Shown: one piece after another, positions 2 through 18,956 of the stretch
Numbering within the stretch: the first letter of the stretch is position 1
Layout of the letters: each line of letters opens with the position of its first letter
Virus record (IMG/VR): IMGVR_UViG_3300009496_000078
Span: 1 to 23,698 of that record
Source: a virus
DNA length: 23,698 bases
Reading direction: 5' to 3' (one strand)
The notes under the pieces: generated by a model
Seen by the model: only the letters and a program-made list of their open reading frames with translations
Told to the model about the DNA's origin: nothing
The model's database searches: none
Made by a program: the position numbers and the translations under genes

Positions 2-544
2 AGGCAGTTGGCAAAAGCTCACTCGTTCGCTCCTATTTATGGGGCAACGGGCAGTCAATATGAAGGTCATATCAAAAATTACTATACCCGTTTCTTTGAG
101 ATTTATAAGGGACTTGGGGCTTACCACAAGAAGCTCACAGACGGTGTGCTGAAGACCGGTCACATTCAGATCTTCTCAGGGCGGCAGTTCTTCTGGCCTA
201 ATGAGGAACGCCGCAAGAACGGACGCACAAAGCACTACACCCAACAGGTGAACTACCCTGTGCAGTCTGCAGCCACCGCTGACATTGTGCCACTTAGTTG
301 CATACGGGCATTCCGAAAGTTCAAGGAACTTAACCTGCGCTCTAAGCTAGTTCTGACTGTGCATGATTCTATTGTGGTAGACACCCACCCAGATGAAGAG
401 GAACAGGTCAAAGAGGTGCTGCAGTGGGCTATGGAGAAGGTCACAGAAGAGGCAAAAGAGCTTTGGGACTATGACTTTATTCTGCCCCTCAAAATAGAAA
501 CATCCCGTGGCAAAAATTGGCTGGATCAAGTCGAATATGATTGA
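2..544 (+). CDS. DNA polymerase family A, C-terminal part (5' end outside window)
   Basis: This is the 3' end of the phage replicative DNA polymerase (Pol I/T7 family), covering most of the fingers-palm polymerase site. The frame is open from base 2. It begins inside motif B (O-helix), where RQLAKAHSFAPIYGATG fits the family pattern R-x3-K-x6-YG that binds the incoming dNTP. A QxxxAD-like segment (QSAATADIV) follows, then motif C as TVHDSIVVD, whose His-Asp supplies a catalytic metal ligand. The residue after HD is Ser, where cellular Pol I has Glu. About 180 residues are visible, ending at TGA 542-544. The exonuclease and thumb regions lie left of the window. A TTG at 8 could be mistaken for a start but is internal. 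Family assignment is secure from motifs B and C. Confidence 0.95.
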   Translation, partial: RQLAKAHSFAPIYGATGSQYEGHIKNYYTRFFEIYKGLGAYHKKLTDGVLKTGHIQIFSGRQFFWPNEERRKNGRTKHYTQQVNYPVQSAATADIVPLSCIRAFRKFKELNLRSKLVLTVHDSIVVDTHPDEEEQVKEVLQWAMEKVTEEAKELWDYDFILPLKIETSRGKNWLDQVEYD

Positions 545-3639: not shown

Positions 3640-5607
3640 ATGAATAACTATCTACCAACCGATTACCAATCCTTTATACACACCAGCCGCTATGCCCGTT
3701 GGCTAGACGAAGAAGGTCGCCGTGAAACATGGGGCGAAACCGTAGGCCGCTACATGGACAGTATTGTTGAGCCTATAATTGATAGCGGCGAAAACGAAAA
3801 CAGTTTCAATGTAGCAAATGAAATTGAGCAAGCCATCTTGGGCCTTGAGGTTATGCCTTCTATGCGATCCATGATGACCGCAGGTGTTGCTGCAGCCCGT
3901 GATAACACATGCATGTACAACTGTTCGTACCTAGTCATAGATGACCCTAAAGCCTTTGATGAAGCTATGTTCATCCTGCTATGCGGGACAGGCGTAGGGT
4001 TTAGCTGTGAACGCCAGTACATCAAGAACCTACCAGAGGTTCCTGAGAAGCTTTTTGACAGCGAAACTACAATCGTGGTCAAGGACAGCAAGGAAGGCTG
4101 GGCCAAAGCTTATCGCCTTCTGATTAGCATGCTCTTTGCCGGTGAGATCCCCACATGGGATGTTAGTAAGGTACGCCCTGCCGGTGCCAGACTTAAAACC
4201 TTCGGTGGTCGTGCATCTGGCCCAGCGCCTTTGGTTGATCTGTTCAACTTCACCATTGATACCTTCAAAAAGGCTGCAGGCAGTAAGTTATCTTCTTACG
4301 AGTGTCACAGCATCATGTGCAAGATCGGTGAAGTAGTTGTCGTGGGTGGTGTACGCCGTTCTGCAATGATTAGCCTTTCCAACCTGTCAGATGATCGTAT
4401 GCGCCACGCTAAGTCTGGTAAGTGGTGGGAAACAGCACCGCACATGGGCCTAGCCAATAACTCTGTGGCCTATACCGAAAAGCCAGACGCCATGTCATTT
4501 CTGCGTGAATGGACTGCCCTAGCAGAAAGCGGTTCTGGTGAGCGTGGCATCTTCAATCGTGAAGCTGCAGTCAAGCAGGCCCAAAAGAACGGACGCCGTG
4601 ACCCTAGCTACGAATGGGGTACGAATCCATGTTCGGAAATTCTGTTACGGGGACCAAAAATAGATAAAAATGGCAACCCGATTTCAGGCACTGGTGGGCA
4701 ATTTTGTAATTTAAGTGAGGTAGTTATCCGTGCTACAGATACTAAGGAAGATCTTATTCGCAAGGTCCGTATCGCAACCATTTTGGGAACGATACAATCT
4801 ACCTACACCAAGTTCCCTTATCTGCGAAAGGTGTGGGCGAAGAACACGGCAGAAGAACGGCTGTTGGGCGTGTCGCTGACGGGCATCATGGATAACACCC
4901 TTACAAATGGCAACGAAGGCGATCTGGCTGCACTGTTAGAAGACCTGAAGCAGGTGGCTGTCGATACCAACAAGGAATGGGCTGATAAGCTGGGAATCGA
5001 AGTGTCGGCTGCTATAACTTGTTGTAAACCCTCGGGAACAGTTTCACAACTTGTTGATAGTTCGAGCGGGATACACGCACGGCATAGCCCATACTACATC
5101 CGCACCGTCCGTGGTGACAACAAAGATCCTCTGACGCAGTTTATGAAGGACTCAGGCGTTCCTAATGAGCCAGAGGCCTTTAAGCCTGACCAGACCACCG
5201 TCTTCAGCTTCCCAATGAAAGCACCTGATGGTGCAGTGGTCACAGCCGATATGTCAGCAATCGATCAGCTTAACATGTGGCTCATGTATCAGCGTCACTG
5301 GTGCGAACATAAGCCAAGCGTGACTGTGAACATCAAGTCTTCTGAATGGCTTGACGTAGGTGCATTTGTTTATGAGCATTTCGATGAAATGTCTGGAGTA
5401 TCGTTCCTGCCGTTTGATGATCACACCTACCAGCAAGCGCCCTACCAGCACGTTGGTAAGTCCGTGTATCAGGAAATGCTTGCTATCATGCCAGAGGCAA
5501 TCGATTGGACAAAGCTTTCTGCGTATGAAGCGGAAGACAATACCTCTGGCAGTCAAACACTCGCATGCTCTGGCGATAGCTGCGAAATCGTAGATCTCAC
5601 TGCGTAG
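3640..5607 (+). CDS. nrdJ: Class II (adenosylcobalamin-dependent) ribonucleoside-triphosphate reductase, monomeric
   Basis: The product is 655 residues, slightly shorter than the Lactobacillus monomeric enzyme. It reduces ribonucleotides to deoxyribonucleotides using a radical generated from coenzyme B12. The radical site is NPCSE: N329, thiyl C331, E333. The active-site redox pair is C95 (YNCSYL) and C356 (FCNLSEV). The phosphate-binding loop region is KPSGTVSQL (463-471) followed by SSSGIHARH. A C-terminal C-x4-C (CSGDSC) is the swinging dithiol that is re-reduced by an external thiol donor, and a glutaredoxin follows directly. No NrdB-like subunit or glycyl-radical motif is present, so this is class II. 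ATG 3640 has GAGG at 3630-3633; an in-frame TTG at 3628 is less likely. The enzyme ties infection to a host supply of B12. Codon use shifts near the active-site motifs. Confidence 0.95.
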   Translation: MNNYLPTDYQSFIHTSRYARWLDEEGRRETWGETVGRYMDSIVEPIIDSGENENSFNVANEIEQAILGLEVMPSMRSMMTAGVAAARDNTCMYNCSYLVIDDPKAFDEAMFILLCGTGVGFSCERQYIKNLPEVPEKLFDSETTIVVKDSKEGWAKAYRLLISMLFAGEIPTWDVSKVRPAGARLKTFGGRASGPAPLVDLFNFTIDTFKKAAGSKLSSYECHSIMCKIGEVVVVGGVRRSAMISLSNLSDDRMRHAKSGKWWETAPHMGLANNSVAYTEKPDAMSFLREWTALAESGSGERGIFNREAAVKQAQKNGRRDPSYEWGTNPCSEILLRGPKIDKNGNPISGTGGQFCNLSEVVIRATDTKEDLIRKVRIATILGTIQSTYTKFPYLRKVWAKNTAEERLLGVSLTGIMDNTLTNGNEGDLAALLEDLKQVAVDTNKEWADKLGIEVSAAITCCKPSGTVSQLVDSSSGIHARHSPYYIRTVRGDNKDPLTQFMKDSGVPNEPEAFKPDQTTVFSFPMKAPDGAVVTADMSAIDQLNMWLMYQRHWCEHKPSVTVNIKSSEWLDVGAFVYEHFDEMSGVSFLPFDDHTYQQAPYQHVGKSVYQEMLAIMPEAIDWTKLSAYEAEDNTSGSQTLACSGDSCEIVDLTA

Positions 5608-5853: not shown

Positions 5854-6036
5854 ATGAACAAAAACGAGGCATACGAAGTCGGATATGAAGACTTCTTCAA
5901 GAACAATCATCGATGCGCCTACAAACCTAAAAGTCGTTTCTACAAGGAATGGCAACGGGGTTTCAATGACGCATACTTCTACAACAGGAGAACCCATGTA
6001 CAAAGTATTCCAACAGCGAGACTTCAACAAGTATGA
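5854..6036 (+). CDS. Ribosome-modulation-factor-like mini-protein
   Basis: The product is 60 residues. Residues 6-43 show the spacing of the RMF family: AYEVGY (6-11), a basic stretch with a single Cys-Ala-Tyr (CAY, 21-23, where RMF has CPY), then W33-x-x-GF-x-x-A (EWQRGFNDAY). Bacterial RMF binds the 16S rRNA/anti-Shine-Dalgarno region and pairs ribosomes into inactive 100S dimers. RMF-like proteins occur in some phages and plasmids, with uncertain roles. The gene has a strong ribosome-binding site (GAGGCAGG 5842-5849) before ATG 5854. Its last 41 bases overlap the next CDS in another frame, and its tail (residues 44-60) is probably constrained by that overlap. A ribosome-targeting role is an inference from the motif. 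It could instead be an unrelated small basic helical protein. Confidence 0.65.
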   Translation: MNKNEAYEVGYEDFFKNNHRCAYKPKSRFYKEWQRGFNDAYFYNRRTHVQSIPTARLQQV

Positions 6037-6415
6037 TGAAGCGGCACGGGCAGCGGCTAAAAGGTTTTGGTCTTCGGTTGGCTATGATTGTACAGACAAT
6101 CCTGACGACTATGGGGTGGACCTAGTCGTTACCGGACAGAACCGACAGTTCTTCTGCGAAGTCGAGGTTAAAACGGTGTGGCACGGGGTACAGTTTAAGT
6201 ACCCCACCATCCATCTGCCGGTACGCAAGGCAAAGTTCTTAACCAAGCCCACACAGTTTATGATTTTCAACAACAGCCTCACTCATGCAGCCCTGTTTGG
6301 TCGCAAGGTGGTTCTGGATAGCCCCTGCGTTGAAGTCTCCAATGTGAAGATCTCACACGGCGAGAAGTTCTTTGACGTTCCTTTTGAAAAAGCAACCTTC
6401 GTACAAACAATTTAG
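5996..6415 (+). CDS. Small PD-(D/E)XK nuclease-fold protein of unknown target
   Basis: The product is 139 residues. After a helix (YDEAARAAAKRFWSSVGY) comes PDDYGVDLVVTG with D42, then a strand FFCEVEVKTVW carrying E57 and K59. This D-x14-E-x-K layout is the PD-(D/E)XK metal site of restriction-like nucleases. A conserved-looking HLPVRKAKFL (73-82) follows. AGGAG at 5986-5990, 5 bases before ATG 5996, fixes the start. The frame is open further left to 5885, but that start lies inside the RMF-like gene. The 41-base overlap with that gene couples their translation. It is the third nuclease-fold protein of this block and may act in host DNA degradation or defence against competing DNA. The substrate is not readable from the sequence. 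Confidence 0.78.
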   Translation: MYKVFQQRDFNKYDEAARAAAKRFWSSVGYDCTDNPDDYGVDLVVTGQNRQFFCEVEVKTVWHGVQFKYPTIHLPVRKAKFLTKPTQFMIFNNSLTHAALFGRKVVLDSPCVEVSNVKISHGEKFFDVPFEKATFVQTI

Positions 6416-7138: not shown

Positions 7139-7305
7139 TGGATTTATACCTGTCCGGTTGCCTATACATGATCGGCTCCTTGTTTATGACTTTAAACTTT
7201 GAGCCAGAAGAGGGTGCCTCAAAAGTGATGTACCTTTTGTTCGTATTCGCATGGCCCGTAATGACCTTATGGCTGGTCATAGAAGATATGTTTCACAAAG
7301 AATAA
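7138..7305 (+). CDS. 55-residue two-helix membrane protein
   Basis: This short gene ends the + strand block. The translation is MDLYLSGCLYMIGSLFMTLN for residues 1-20, then FEPEEGASKV (21-30), a second hydrophobic stretch MYLLFVFAWPVMTLWLV (31-47), and IEDMFHKE. It therefore has two predicted transmembrane helices joined by a short acidic loop, the shape of a small holin or another inner-membrane effector. The ATG overlaps the phoH stop (TAATG), and AGAGGAAG in the end of phoH (7122-7129) is a good ribosome-binding site. Those two facts support it as a real gene. Its place with early/replication genes rather than beside the endolysin argues against a firm holin call. It is unrecognised beyond the membrane topology. 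Confidence 0.72.
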   Translation: MDLYLSGCLYMIGSLFMTLNFEPEEGASKVMYLLFVFAWPVMTLWLVIEDMFHKE

Positions 7306-7336
7306 AGCGCCCCGTGGTGTTGACCTCGGAGCGCCC
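7306..7336 (+). promoter_or_regulatory. Direct repeat and imperfect dyad around the -35 box (possible operator)
   Basis: AGCGCCC occurs twice, at 7306-7312 and 7330-7336, exactly 24 bases apart and flanking the -35 hexamer. Between them CCGTGG (7312-7317) and CCTCGG (7324-7329) form an inverted pair with one mismatch, centred on the -35 box. Such nested symmetry at a promoter is what a repressor or activator site looks like, but no regulator gene is visible in the window to pair with it. Confidence 0.35.
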
Positions 7337-7348
7337 TAAGCGTATAAT
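7320..7348 (+). promoter_or_regulatory. Strong sigma-70-type promoter in the convergent gap
   Basis: TTGACC (7320-7325) and TATAAT (7343-7348) are separated by exactly 17 bases, an 11/12 match to the bacterial housekeeping consensus at ideal spacing. Transcription would start near 7355. It points right, against the late block, and reaches a strong terminator about 70 bases later with no gene between. The most direct reading is that it makes a short non-coding RNA. Confidence 0.7.
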
Positions 7349-7354
7349 ATACTT

Positions 7355-7426
7355 GAAGCTGGAAGTTTGGTCGCTTCCCCTTCGGTTTTAATTGGAACCC
7401 CTCAGATTTAGGTCTGGGGGGTTTTT
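7355..7426 (+). ncRNA. Predicted ~72-nt phage small RNA
   Basis: The RNA is defined by the promoter upstream (TATAAT at 7343-7348) and by the intrinsic terminator ending in TTTTT at 7426. It contains no open frame with a start codon. A 5' hairpin is visible: GGAAGT (7361-7366) pairs with GCTTCC (7373-7378) around a six-base loop TTGGTC. An alternative pairing is GAAGC (7355-7359) with GCTTC (7373-7377). A middle segment CCCTTCGG (7378-7385) is followed by GGTTTTAATTGGAACC, which can fold on itself and would compete with the base of the terminator stem. The layout (5' stem-loop, linker, terminator stem with U tail) is that of a bacterial trans-acting sRNA. Family is not recognised and the 5' end is a prediction. 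Confidence 0.5.
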
Positions 7427-7427
7427 C
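7396..7427 (+). terminator. Intrinsic terminator between the convergent blocks
   Basis: AACCCCTCAGA (7396-7406) pairs with TCTGGGGGGTT (7413-7423), an 11-bp stem with one G-U wobble and a six-base loop, followed by a T run to 7426. On the + strand it would stop both the promoter at 7320 and read-through from the replication block. On the - strand the same stem has one mismatch (A opposite C) and only a weak T run, so it would stop late transcripts less efficiently. The distal arm and T run end directly at the 1232-residue gene's stop codon. Confidence 0.85.
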
Positions 7428-10400
7428 TTATTGAGGCACTACGGCGTCTACCGCATTTAGAAACATATCACTTGTTTGATCGGATGCATCACCGACCCGC
7501 AATTCGTATTGCAGTGTTCTGTTAGCTACGCTTAGAAAATTATCCCGCAATGTAGCCAACAAACTAGGATCTGCACCATCTGCAATCTTAGTAGCAAGAT
7601 CAGCGAAGTCTTCAGGGTTTGCTAGAATAGTACCAATAATCCTTTGCTGTTCCTCTTTACCTAGTTTCTCCATTGCTTCGATTTGACCTGCAGTAATCCT
7701 ACGAGCCGCTGCGGCAGTTGGGTTCATGTATCCGAAGGCGAAAAGTATACCGGTAGATACACTGTCTCTAACACCTAAGTTAGCCGCTGTATCAGAACCA
7801 GACCGTGCTACCTTCATCCGTGCAGACAGGGATAAATCCTGTAAGCTGCCCAAGGTAAGCATCATGGTATCTTTCATAAACTCATCGTTAGGGAAGGCAC
7901 GAGATACCGCATCTATAAGACCACTAGCTCTCTCATTAGTTAGTTTTGCAAGCTGCCCCGTAGCAACATCACGCATACCGCCGGGTGCAATAGCAGTGGA
8001 AGTTTTTATGGTGTCATTAATAGTACGGAGCAACATAGATTGCGTTGCCATTCTAGCAGGTATTTGCTGATCCGCAGGAAGCTTATCTATCTCTTCCATA
8101 AGCGCACCAATAAAATTGCCGGGATCAGATCCAAGAAGCTCCCGTTTCACAGTGATGCTTGGGTTACTTTGAGCCTCACCTTTCCTGATTCTAGAAAGGA
8201 ACTGAGCTACAACAGTATCCTCTGCAGCAATCTTCCGCTGCCGTGCCATATCTGCTACTTCATCTGCAGCCAACGCCCGGTTCCCAAGCTCATCTTGAAC
8301 AGAAAGTATACGGGATTTAGCAGAATTAAGTTCTTCAACTAATGGACTATCCAGAGACCGTAATTGGCCGATAATACCCTCAAACGCTGCGTCTATTTGC
8401 TCTATGGTCTGGGTATCATTGTTTCGCAAAGCCTTCGCAAGCTTGTCGGCTTGTTCTGCTACAAACAGATCAATAAATGGCTTGTTTACCTCGCCCTTGC
8501 TCAACGCCCCAGATAAAGCGAACTGTAATTGCTCTAGCTGGTTACCTGTGCGATCCGAAAGCATTGCATCTGTATTTGCTACAGAGTTTGTTTCTAGGTC
8601 AGGCTGACCTCTACGGCTTCCTCCCTCTGGTACAGGTGTGCTTGTACCTGCATACGCTGGGGTAAAGGATGCGTCAGATAAATTCTGGGTAGTCATAGAG
8701 TTCTGGAACTTACTCTGTGTCTCAATGAACAAACTATCCGCAGCATTAGCGATCTCTGCAGTGTCGCCCCCATTACGGCTTACATATGCAAGCTGTCCGG
8801 TTGCTTCTCCTGCCTCGTTTACTGCCTTAGACGTAATATGATCTCTGAGTTGTACCAAGGACGCCGCTACATTGCGGTTGTTGGTTGAGGATATTAATTT
8901 ATCTATTTCCTTCTTGAGGCTGTATAGATCCTGAAACCCAATATCGTCAGTCAATCCATCTATGACCTGTTGAGGGGTTATCGCAGAAGCACCTTCCCGT
9001 GGGTCTCCCATTAAAGATGGCTCTGAAGATGGAGAAATCTTATCCCCAAACACCTGCTTTAATTTAGCAAGAATTGGTGCGCCATCCTGAGTTGTTTCAC
9101 CCAAACCGCCTGCATTGTTAAATACATTTGCAAGTTGTGTTTTGAATGCAGGCATGTCGATGGGATCATTCGGGATAGCTTCATACGCCACCTTAACCGC
9201 ATCATACGCCGCACGGTATTCATCCACAAAGGTCTTACCATACAAATTAGTAAGCTGTTCTACATACCGTGTGTCATCAAAGAAACGAGAAGGATCGACC
9301 TCCGCTACCATTTCCTTAATCAGGGGATCATTTTGGACCGCAGAACCTGCTTCGGCTCTAAAATTACCTGCCTGTGTTTCTGCGGCTGAAATCTCAGCAT
9401 CAATCTCTTGTATATCTAAGTTTCTGTTGTCCACCAGATCAGGTACGGTTTCCGTATCAAAGTCTATGCCGTCTGGGTTTACTGCCCTAGCTTCTTTTTC
9501 AAAGAGATTTCCTGCTGAATTAATCATTTCAGCTTGTTTATCCCTAATCATACTATTGTCAGTGGCACCTCTAGTTACCCCAATAGTATTGGAGACAATT
9601 GAGTTCGCTTCCTTTTCTACATATCGTTCCCATTCATCGGGCTTCATAGAGTTCTGCAACCTTTGGCGGGTAACAGTTATATACTTCTTTGCACCTGCAG
9701 CTAGAGCATTAACCGTGTCTACGGGTATTTCCTCTACCGTATTACCTACAGTCGCAATAATGGTTGCATTATCTTTCAACACCTGTGCCAGCGCACGGGA
9801 AGCTTCTGCAACTTCTTGGGCGTTTGCGTTTTTCAATGAAGGGTCAATAGTTGTAATTACACCTAATATAGCGGCACGTTGTGCTTTATCTCGCACAAAC
9901 TTTTTATTGATCAGACCTTGTGAGCTACTACCCATGTCACCGACTTTTCGTAGGGCAAGACCGGCTACACCCAGAAAAGTATCAAAAACACCATTGACCA
10001 CTAGACCATCAAAAGTCATTGCCAGATCTGCGGCCAGTTCGTCATCAACTCCGGTGAAGGTTTTCTTAACCATATCTGCATCAAAGATCAGACCTTCATC
10101 GCCTTCTTGCGAGAGAACACCCTCTGTTAAAGCTACTGCAAGGCTTCCGCCAGCGTATTGAACTGCGTTGTCCACTACGGAACCCGCACCCCGAATAGTA
10201 TTACCTACTACGTTATTTGGTAATACTTTATCGGCCTTCTTAACTAATTCAGAACCTACCCCAATAGCCGCCCTACCTGTTTTTTCAGCGGCAACGCCGG
10301 GAACACCGAATACCAAAAGATCTGTTAGTAGACCTTCACCTGTACTCTGGTCATAATCAGGAACGGCAGTTGCATAGTCGCTATCCTCTAGGAAGTTAAC

Positions 10401-17543: not shown

Positions 17544-18956
17544 TCACGCCGCCGTTGAAGAAAAAGGCTGTGACCCGACCATAAGTCCGGGGCTAGAAGA
17601 TCCGCCATAACCCATCTGGTCCATCTGGCTCATCAGCTTATCAATATTTATGCGGCTACGGTCTGTAATTTGGCCCTGCTGACTAAACGTGGCAATATTA
17701 AGATTGTTATTTGCGTCAAATCCACGCTGCGTGACGCTACCATTTTTGTTATTAGATTGTTGGATCAAACGGCCTTCTCCGTCAAAACTGTCTGCCAGTT
17801 TTGCGTATTCCATTGTTAAAGCTGGGTCCAAGTTTTGACCATTACCCAAGATAACTTCTCTAATAGTAGACAGCCTCTGAAGCATGTCCTGCTTAGTCTG
17901 TTGTTGTCCCGCTGTTTGCGCCTGAACCCCAGAACTAATTTGTTTAAAAGCAGAACCGAAGTTCGTGGACATGTCATCTTGGTTCCGCATTGTTTGCTCG
18001 GTGTTACGAGCAATAGAAGCGTTTTGCTGAGAGGTTGCATCAAAGTTTCGATTTAGATCGTCACGCACCTGCCCGAAACCTCCGGTGACCTGATTTACAA
18101 GGTCAGCCCGTGCTTGGGTCGCAAGCGTAGCATCGTCTGAATACTCAGAGCGGAAATCAGAAAAGTTATCCTGCAACCCACCGACTGAACTTTGAATGTT
18201 AGCCTGTCCATCTGATAAACCACCGTAGTATGTAGTTGCTCTATCGGACATGCCCTCAAGGTATTCTTGCAGGCTTGTTTGACCCCCAAGTACATTAGCA
18301 GAGAGATCCGTTAAGCTTTGGTTCTGTGTATCAAACTGTGTGTTTACGTTCTCGTTTACGCCAGCAAAGCCTGTGTCGAGAGAACTATCTACCGTATTAA
18401 AACGGTCTGTCATATTACCAGATAGATCAGAAACGCTGTTCTGTATGTTTGTCTGGCCCTCTGCAACATCGTTAAAGGATTGGTTCATGTCGCTGAACCC
18501 GGAGTTCACAGAACCTCGCACACCGTCCAAGTTGCTATTCACAGTAGCAAATCCAGTGTCAGTTACACCTTCAAGGCTACCAATGCGGTTTTCGATGCCA
18601 GAGGTGTCTACTGTTTGGTTTACAACTCGTGTCTGCGGGATAGCAGCGATCTGATTACTAAGGCCTGTCTGGCCCGATGTGAGTGTGTTTTGATTAGACA
18701 ACATAGTATCCTGATTGCCCATCATCGTGTTTTGATTACCCGTCATCGTGGCTTGGTTGTTAGTGATTGTCTCACCCATAGCCGCAGTTTCTGCAAAACC
18801 GGCATTAGTGTTTTCGTTAACAGTGGTCACACCCCCCTGAACACTTTCGTCCACTTGTGCCGCAGTAGCACCGCCGCCGCCGCCTTTATAGGCAATCAGG
18901 CCAGAAGCCCGTGGGTGTAGATACCGGTAAGGCATAAAAGGGTTAAGCAGTTTCAT
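17544..18956 (-). CDS. Repeat-rich coiled-coil structural protein (tail or virion filament)
   Basis: The product is 470 residues. After an N-terminal segment with a run of five glycines (25-29) come five 7-residue repeats (66-100). A long stretch (about 130-345) follows, dominated by Asn, Ser, Asp, Gln and Gly with recurring units such as GFATVNSNLDGV, GFSDMNQSF, GFAGVNENV and GFGQVRDDL. This regular G-F/phi-polar pattern without cysteines or catalytic motifs fits an elongated trimeric coiled coil, as in tail needles, fibres or baseplate filaments. The C-terminal 100 residues look globular (EVILGNGQNLDPALTMEYAK, then NIDKLMSQMDQM). The start follows the previous stop with no gap, and GGAG lies upstream. 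The next gene is the endolysin, 7 bases on. Structural role is inferred; no specific family recognised. Confidence 0.75.
   Translation of the reverse strand: MKLLNPFMPYRYLHPRASGLIAYKGGGGGATAAQVDESVQGGVTTVNENTNAGFAETAAMGETITNNQATMTGNQNTMMGNQDTMLSNQNTLTSGQTGLSNQIAAIPQTRVVNQTVDTSGIENRIGSLEGVTDTGFATVNSNLDGVRGSVNSGFSDMNQSFNDVAEGQTNIQNSVSDLSGNMTDRFNTVDSSLDTGFAGVNENVNTQFDTQNQSLTDLSANVLGGQTSLQEYLEGMSDRATTYYGGLSDGQANIQSSVGGLQDNFSDFRSEYSDDATLATQARADLVNQVTGGFGQVRDDLNRNFDATSQQNASIARNTEQTMRNQDDMSTNFGSAFKQISSGVQAQTAGQQQTKQDMLQRLSTIREVILGNGQNLDPALTMEYAKLADSFDGEGRLIQQSNNKNGSVTQRGFDANNNLNIATFSQQGQITDRSRINIDKLMSQMDQMGYGGSSSPGLMVGSQPFSSTAA
18657..18761 (-). repeat. Five tandem 7-residue (21-bp) repeats
   Basis: Residues 66-100 of the filament-like protein read NNQATMT, GNQNTMM, GNQDTML, SNQNTLT and SGQTGLS. 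The third position is always Gln and the hydrophobic residue recurs in register, a heptad phase. The DNA units remain recognisably similar (for example, repeated TTGATTA and ATCGTG on the + strand), so copy number could vary among relatives by slippage. Confidence 0.8.

Follow-up and report, generated by a model that had tools for sequence, protein, structure and literature searches.

The window that we analysed is the whole of a 23,698-nucleotide stretch of phage DNA (IMG/VR record IMGVR_UViG_3300009496_000078), in which an early block of plus-strand genes, among them genes for MazG-like, ribonucleotide reductase, glutaredoxin and PhoH proteins, meets a late block of minus-strand genes across a gap of 122 bases (positions 7306-7427). 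The gap is bounded by a plus-strand ORF that ends at 7305 and a minus-strand ORF that ends at 7428. An earlier, sequence-only reading of this DNA had described the gap as lacking a reading frame, and we likewise find no credible ORF inside it; the listed frame at 7251-7391 is an out-of-frame overlap with the upstream gene. As judged from its proteins and gene order, the phage belongs with the HMO-2011-type roseophages. The isolates nearest to it are CRP-235, CRP-212, CRP-3 and CRP-738, which are HMO-2011-type phages of RCA roseobacters, and this type is one of the dominant groups of marine phages (PMC9038755). Elsewhere in the window, positions 5885-6415 encode an unannotated 176-aa protein that is conserved across this phage group, finds no match in Pfam or PHROG, and carries invariant D and ExK residues (GVDLVV...CEVEVK) that hint at a PD-(D/E)XK nuclease.

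The gap holds a promoter, a 5' hairpin and an intrinsic terminator, from which a small RNA is predicted to be made (Table 1). The sequence-only reading had proposed a phage small RNA with just these three parts, and the conservation of all three among related phages, described below, supports that proposal. Its promoter, TTGACC-N17-TATAAT, is present as stated, and so is its 5' stem-loop (GGAAGT/GCTTCC). It had also recognised the terminator and its T run correctly, but took the stem to be 11 bp long, whereas we count 14 pairs including G-U pairs. The terminator hairpin itself occupies 7394-7425, is followed by the T run, and is presumably shared with the upstream plus-strand operon. The match of our covariance model to the window runs from 7351 to 7425.

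Table 1. Features predicted in and around the gap between the early and late blocks
Feature	Position	Strand	Remarks
Terminator of the late operon; the -35 box of the small RNA gene forms its tip	7307-7334	-	GCGCTCCGAGGTCAACACCACGGGGCGC then TTTATTC on the minus strand
-35 box TTGACC	7320-7325	+	TTGACC in 32/33 copies, TTGACG in 1
-10 box TATAAT	7343-7348	+	Spacer 17; nearly all of 33 copies have TATAAT or a near match
Predicted small RNA, ~72-75 nt	7355-7429	+	Start placed by the -10 box and end by the T run
5' hairpin GGAAGU-UUGGUC-GCUUCC	7361-7378	+	6/6 pairs changed on both sides; hexaloop invariant
Loop UUGGUC, matching the YUNR U-turn motif	7367-7372	+	Identical in every copy
U-rich linker, single-stranded	7379-7393	+	Weakly to moderately conserved; GUUUAG-like in relatives
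Intrinsic terminator of the small RNA	7394-7429	+	14 pairs, loop of 4, T run; compensatory changes in relatives

Taken by itself, the promoter in the gap is not significant. With a score of 11/12 it is the best site in a promoter scan of the window, but about 0.5 sites of that score, with spacing of 16-18, are expected by chance in a window of such size, and the total of promoter-like sites (25) equals that in shuffled sequence (26.7). None of 200 shuffles folds as well as the predicted RNA (z -3.6). Judging from the alignments, it is conservation among relatives that lifts the cassette far above chance.

Relatives were gathered by searching IMG/VR with the neighbouring 1232-aa, PhoH, 55-aa and 176-aa proteins and then reading the equivalent gap. 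A direct blastn of the element against phages returned only the element itself, which is too diverged for homologues to be detected in this way, and a search of IMG/VR with a 16-base promoter pattern returned true relatives mixed with chance matches. We find the same cassette in the same position in about 47 IMG/VR contigs and in the isolated RCA roseophages CRP-3, CRP-212 and CRP-235, all of them phages of the HMO-2011 type. A covariance model built from 14 copies matched the remaining copies at E-values of 1e-17 to 1e-5, which are rough values, the building sequences matching by construction. Our first collection of copies demanded a TTGGTC-like loop, which is a selection caveat for the invariance of the loop, but the covariance model search carried no such requirement, and the further copies that it added also carry UUGGUC. 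The spacer between the promoter boxes is 17 in 27 of the 33 aligned copies and 18 in the other 6. CRP-738 appears to have a diverged version in the same place (a tentative match, E 0.009), with TTGACC, a long stem, UUGGUC near its tip and a terminator. This conservation does not simply reflect the closeness of the phages, since the window and the isolates share only 51-60% identity in the neighbouring 176-aa protein and the sequence downstream differs among contigs that have the cassette in common.

Other relatives are without the cassette: CRP-1, CRP-2, CRP-207, CRP-345, CRP-603 and HMO-2011 have a simple terminator hairpin in the equivalent gap. Terminator function alone thus needs none of the cassette. 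In CRP-207 (18324-18352), CRP-603 (8028-8049) and CRP-2 (10045-10074) we see only a short palindromic terminator there, so that the cassette has been gained or lost between subgroups. Several close contigs have a short stretch with a minus-strand ORF inserted behind the small RNA gene, and behind that insert the cassette recurs in degenerate form, together with a minus-strand terminator of its own (5486-5557 in one contig and ~4400-4520 in two others). We also note that the left ends of CRP-3, CRP-212 and CRP-235 (~180-448, minus strand) contain intergenic hairpins, CCUCCC-like (anti-Shine-Dalgarno-like) segments and an intrinsic terminator, which together make a possible second small RNA.

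For the analysis of covariation, 33 copies (32 of them distinct) were aligned to the covariance model, MAFFT having misaligned several hairpins. Paired bases fill 97.4% of cells in this alignment, and both sides vary in 14 of its 17 pairs. Its covariation score is 0.653, whereas shuffles, which ignore relatedness, score 0.246 and slid versions no more than 0.23; the alignment itself was fitted to the structure. All six pairs of the 5' stem also show double changes in a sequence-only MAFFT alignment of 14 copies. This stem occurs in 17 versions (for example GGAAGU/GCUUCC, GGCGGU/ACUGCC, ACGGGG/CCCCGU and AAAAGU/ACUUUU) and stem columns average a conservation of ~0.6, whereas the loop is UUGGUC in 32/32 distinct copies. 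The sequence-only reading had suggested a covariance comparison among related phages, and had set against its proposal the case of a terminator kept where the promoter or 5' stem is not; the relatives present the opposite, with promoter, stem-loop and terminator all conserved and compensatory changes in evidence. We are highly confident that a conserved RNA gene lies in the gap, and on these patterns of substitution the cassette almost certainly works as RNA.

A stem free to change beneath a fixed loop implies that something reads the loop. UUGGUC is the conserved unpaired element of the RNA, and it is a feature that the sequence-only reading did not pick out; that reading had pointed instead to a CCCCTC segment as a complement of GAGG ribosome-binding sites. 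We set that suggestion aside, the segment being located in the terminator stem and not conserved (its counterparts in relatives include CCCTCAG, CCCTTGG, CCCCCTA and CCCTTCT). No conserved unpaired CCUCC-like segment, of the kind that would mark an anti-Shine-Dalgarno small RNA, occurs among the copies compared. YUNR motifs can adopt a U-turn, which makes contact between RNAs easier (PMC8464778), and in all copies the exposed loop contains such a motif, UUGG.

The promoter is nested in a second terminator, which serves the opposing operon. The inverted repeat at 7307-7334, which encloses the -35 box and had gone unremarked before, has an equivalent minus-strand stem with TTGAC(C) at its tip in 22/22 copies folded, usually with a T run after it. 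Because this minus-strand terminator lies beyond the small RNA start in every copy folded, late transcripts would have to cross the whole small RNA gene before stopping, and the small RNA is consequently perfectly antisense to the 3' end of the late mRNA, a relation that the sequence-only reading had likewise not remarked on. Late transcription and the small RNA promoter should, we infer, interfere with each other. Nesting a promoter in an opposing terminator is also a neat economy of genome.

We searched phage and host sequences for a partner of the loop. At phage translation starts the hexamer GACCAA shows no clear enrichment (6 against 3.3 expected in three genomes) and ranks low among hexamers, and no conserved GACCAA hairpin was found elsewhere in the phages examined. 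The only perfect complement of the small RNA is the minus strand in cis, no trans site being conserved among the phage sites examined. Host tmRNA and RNase P contain no GACCAA. Host 23S rRNA was considered as a partner, GACCAA lying just upstream of GGCTTAGAAGCAGCC in 56/73 Roseobacter 23S genes examined, and was dropped because the site varies even in Planktomarina, where one genome has GACCAU. A search of 154 host-group genomes (5 plus 149 family genomes) for a homologous hairpin RNA found only bare terminators; the host loci that we read are without a UUGGUC hairpin, and one of the bare terminator matches sits behind a gene whose end resembles ribosomal protein L20. The Rfam 6S model found no match in two hosts. 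The small RNA thus does not look like a borrowed host (Rhodobacteraceae) small RNA, within the sensitivity of these searches. Against Rfam 15 no family scored above its gathering cut-off, the best weak match being RsaE, at 24.3 bits against a cut-off of 79.

We propose that a host σ70-type RNA polymerase would start near 7355 and stop near 7429, giving a product of ~72-75 nt in which a hairpin presents UUGGUC and is followed by the U-rich linker and the terminator hairpin. UUGGUC, as a U-turn-type loop, would most probably pair fast, as a kissing loop or as a seed, with GACCAA where it lies exposed in an RNA of the host or the phage, and this pairing may alter the translation or decay of the partner RNA during infection. 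Transcription of the late minus-strand operon would continue across the small RNA gene as far as the terminator in which the -35 box lies, and such read-through should occlude the small RNA promoter, titrate the RNA itself and so restrict it to the early phase. Trans action, mode of pairing and timing are all read here from conservation and gene arrangement: an invariant loop suggests a trans-acting small RNA whose single partner does not change. A partner encoded elsewhere, whether a GACCAA-containing RNA or a protein, is more likely than one in cis, because the loop would be free to drift if it had only to pair in cis. We give an even chance to the suggestion that the small RNA acts in trans by pairing of UUGGUC; we count against it that a six-base loop is short and that no conserved GACCAA target was found among the sites searched. 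A broader reading, which we consider less likely than not, makes the RNA a lineage-wide regulator in abundant ocean viruses. Its loop, fixed across at least 17 stem versions, would co-opt some RNA or RNA-binding protein of Roseobacter-group hosts that does not itself change, with late transcription switching the small RNA off through its nested promoter.

The loop might instead be read by a protein. A phage or host protein could recognise the sequence UUGGUC and only the shape of the stem, in which case the abundant RNA would serve as a decoy, scaffold or cofactor. Protein-recognised hairpins are also marked by an invariant loop on a freely changing but always paired stem, and our searches of phage translation starts and phage hairpins gave no RNA target; however, we identified no known protein for such a loop, Rfam holds no similar element, and the 154 host-group genomes offer no similar hairpin to mimic. 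On balance we regard recognition by a protein as rather unlikely. We find it somewhat less probable still that the small RNA acts in cis on the 3' end of the late minus-strand mRNA, such that convergent firing, duplex formation and cleavage by RNase III control the late mRNA or block read-through into the early genes. The path of the late mRNA across the whole small RNA gene in every copy folded is what such a mechanism calls for, and U-turn loops are usual in antisense RNAs (PMC8464778), but complementarity in cis persists whatever the loop, leaving the invariance of UUGGUC beside a changing stem unexplained.

An account in which the gap holds only a bidirectional terminator with a spurious promoter, and is conserved because the phages share a recent ancestor and swap terminator modules, seems to us very improbable. 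Both strands do carry terminators, and a promoter scoring 11/12 arises by chance in about every second window, but the promoter hexamers and their spacing have been kept where other sequence has changed, and so has a hairpin that is no terminator and whose loop is invariant; the relatives with plain terminators show that termination needs far less.

Phage small RNAs are known as a kind (reviewed in PMC12197685). In the open-licence literature that we searched we found nothing on small RNAs of roseophages or on regulatory RNA of HMO-2011-type phages, and we regard the RNA predicted here as a new family of a known kind, an undescribed phage-encoded small RNA of HMO-2011-type roseophages. The family has members in CRP-3, CRP-212 and CRP-235, which are in culture together with their host, strain FZCC0040; this opens to direct testing the ways in which such phages manage early-late switching or control of the host, and the invariant loop offers a precise handle for finding the partner. 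PreS of phage lambda and VpdS of phage VP882 (PMC12197685) are similar in being short phage RNAs from intergenic genes, with likely activity in infection and a fixed partner. They were found, however, in phages of gammaproteobacteria, they need or bind Hfq, and their targets are known; for the roseophage RNA our searches gave neither a target nor an Rfam match. CfrI of cyanophage S-PM2 is likewise a marine phage RNA located at the 3' end of a gene and present in several phages (PMC12197685), but it is a cis antisense RNA at psbA. It has no known sequence relation to the roseophage RNA. ColE1 RNA I is an antisense RNA with a U-turn (YUNR) loop. The U-turn antisense RNAs of the SR5/bsrE, SR4/bsrG and pIP501 systems (PMC8464778) share with the roseophage RNA a YUNR loop and full complementarity in cis to an opposite transcript. 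Pairing in cis needs no fixed loop, whereas the whole loop of the roseophage RNA is invariant across phages. Type I 3' UTR small RNAs are located in 3' UTRs and have their own promoters. They resemble the roseophage RNA in that its promoter sits just behind the last early gene and its terminator presumably serves the upstream operon too, but they are bacterial, whereas the roseophage RNA belongs to a phage and has its promoter inside the terminator of the opposite operon.
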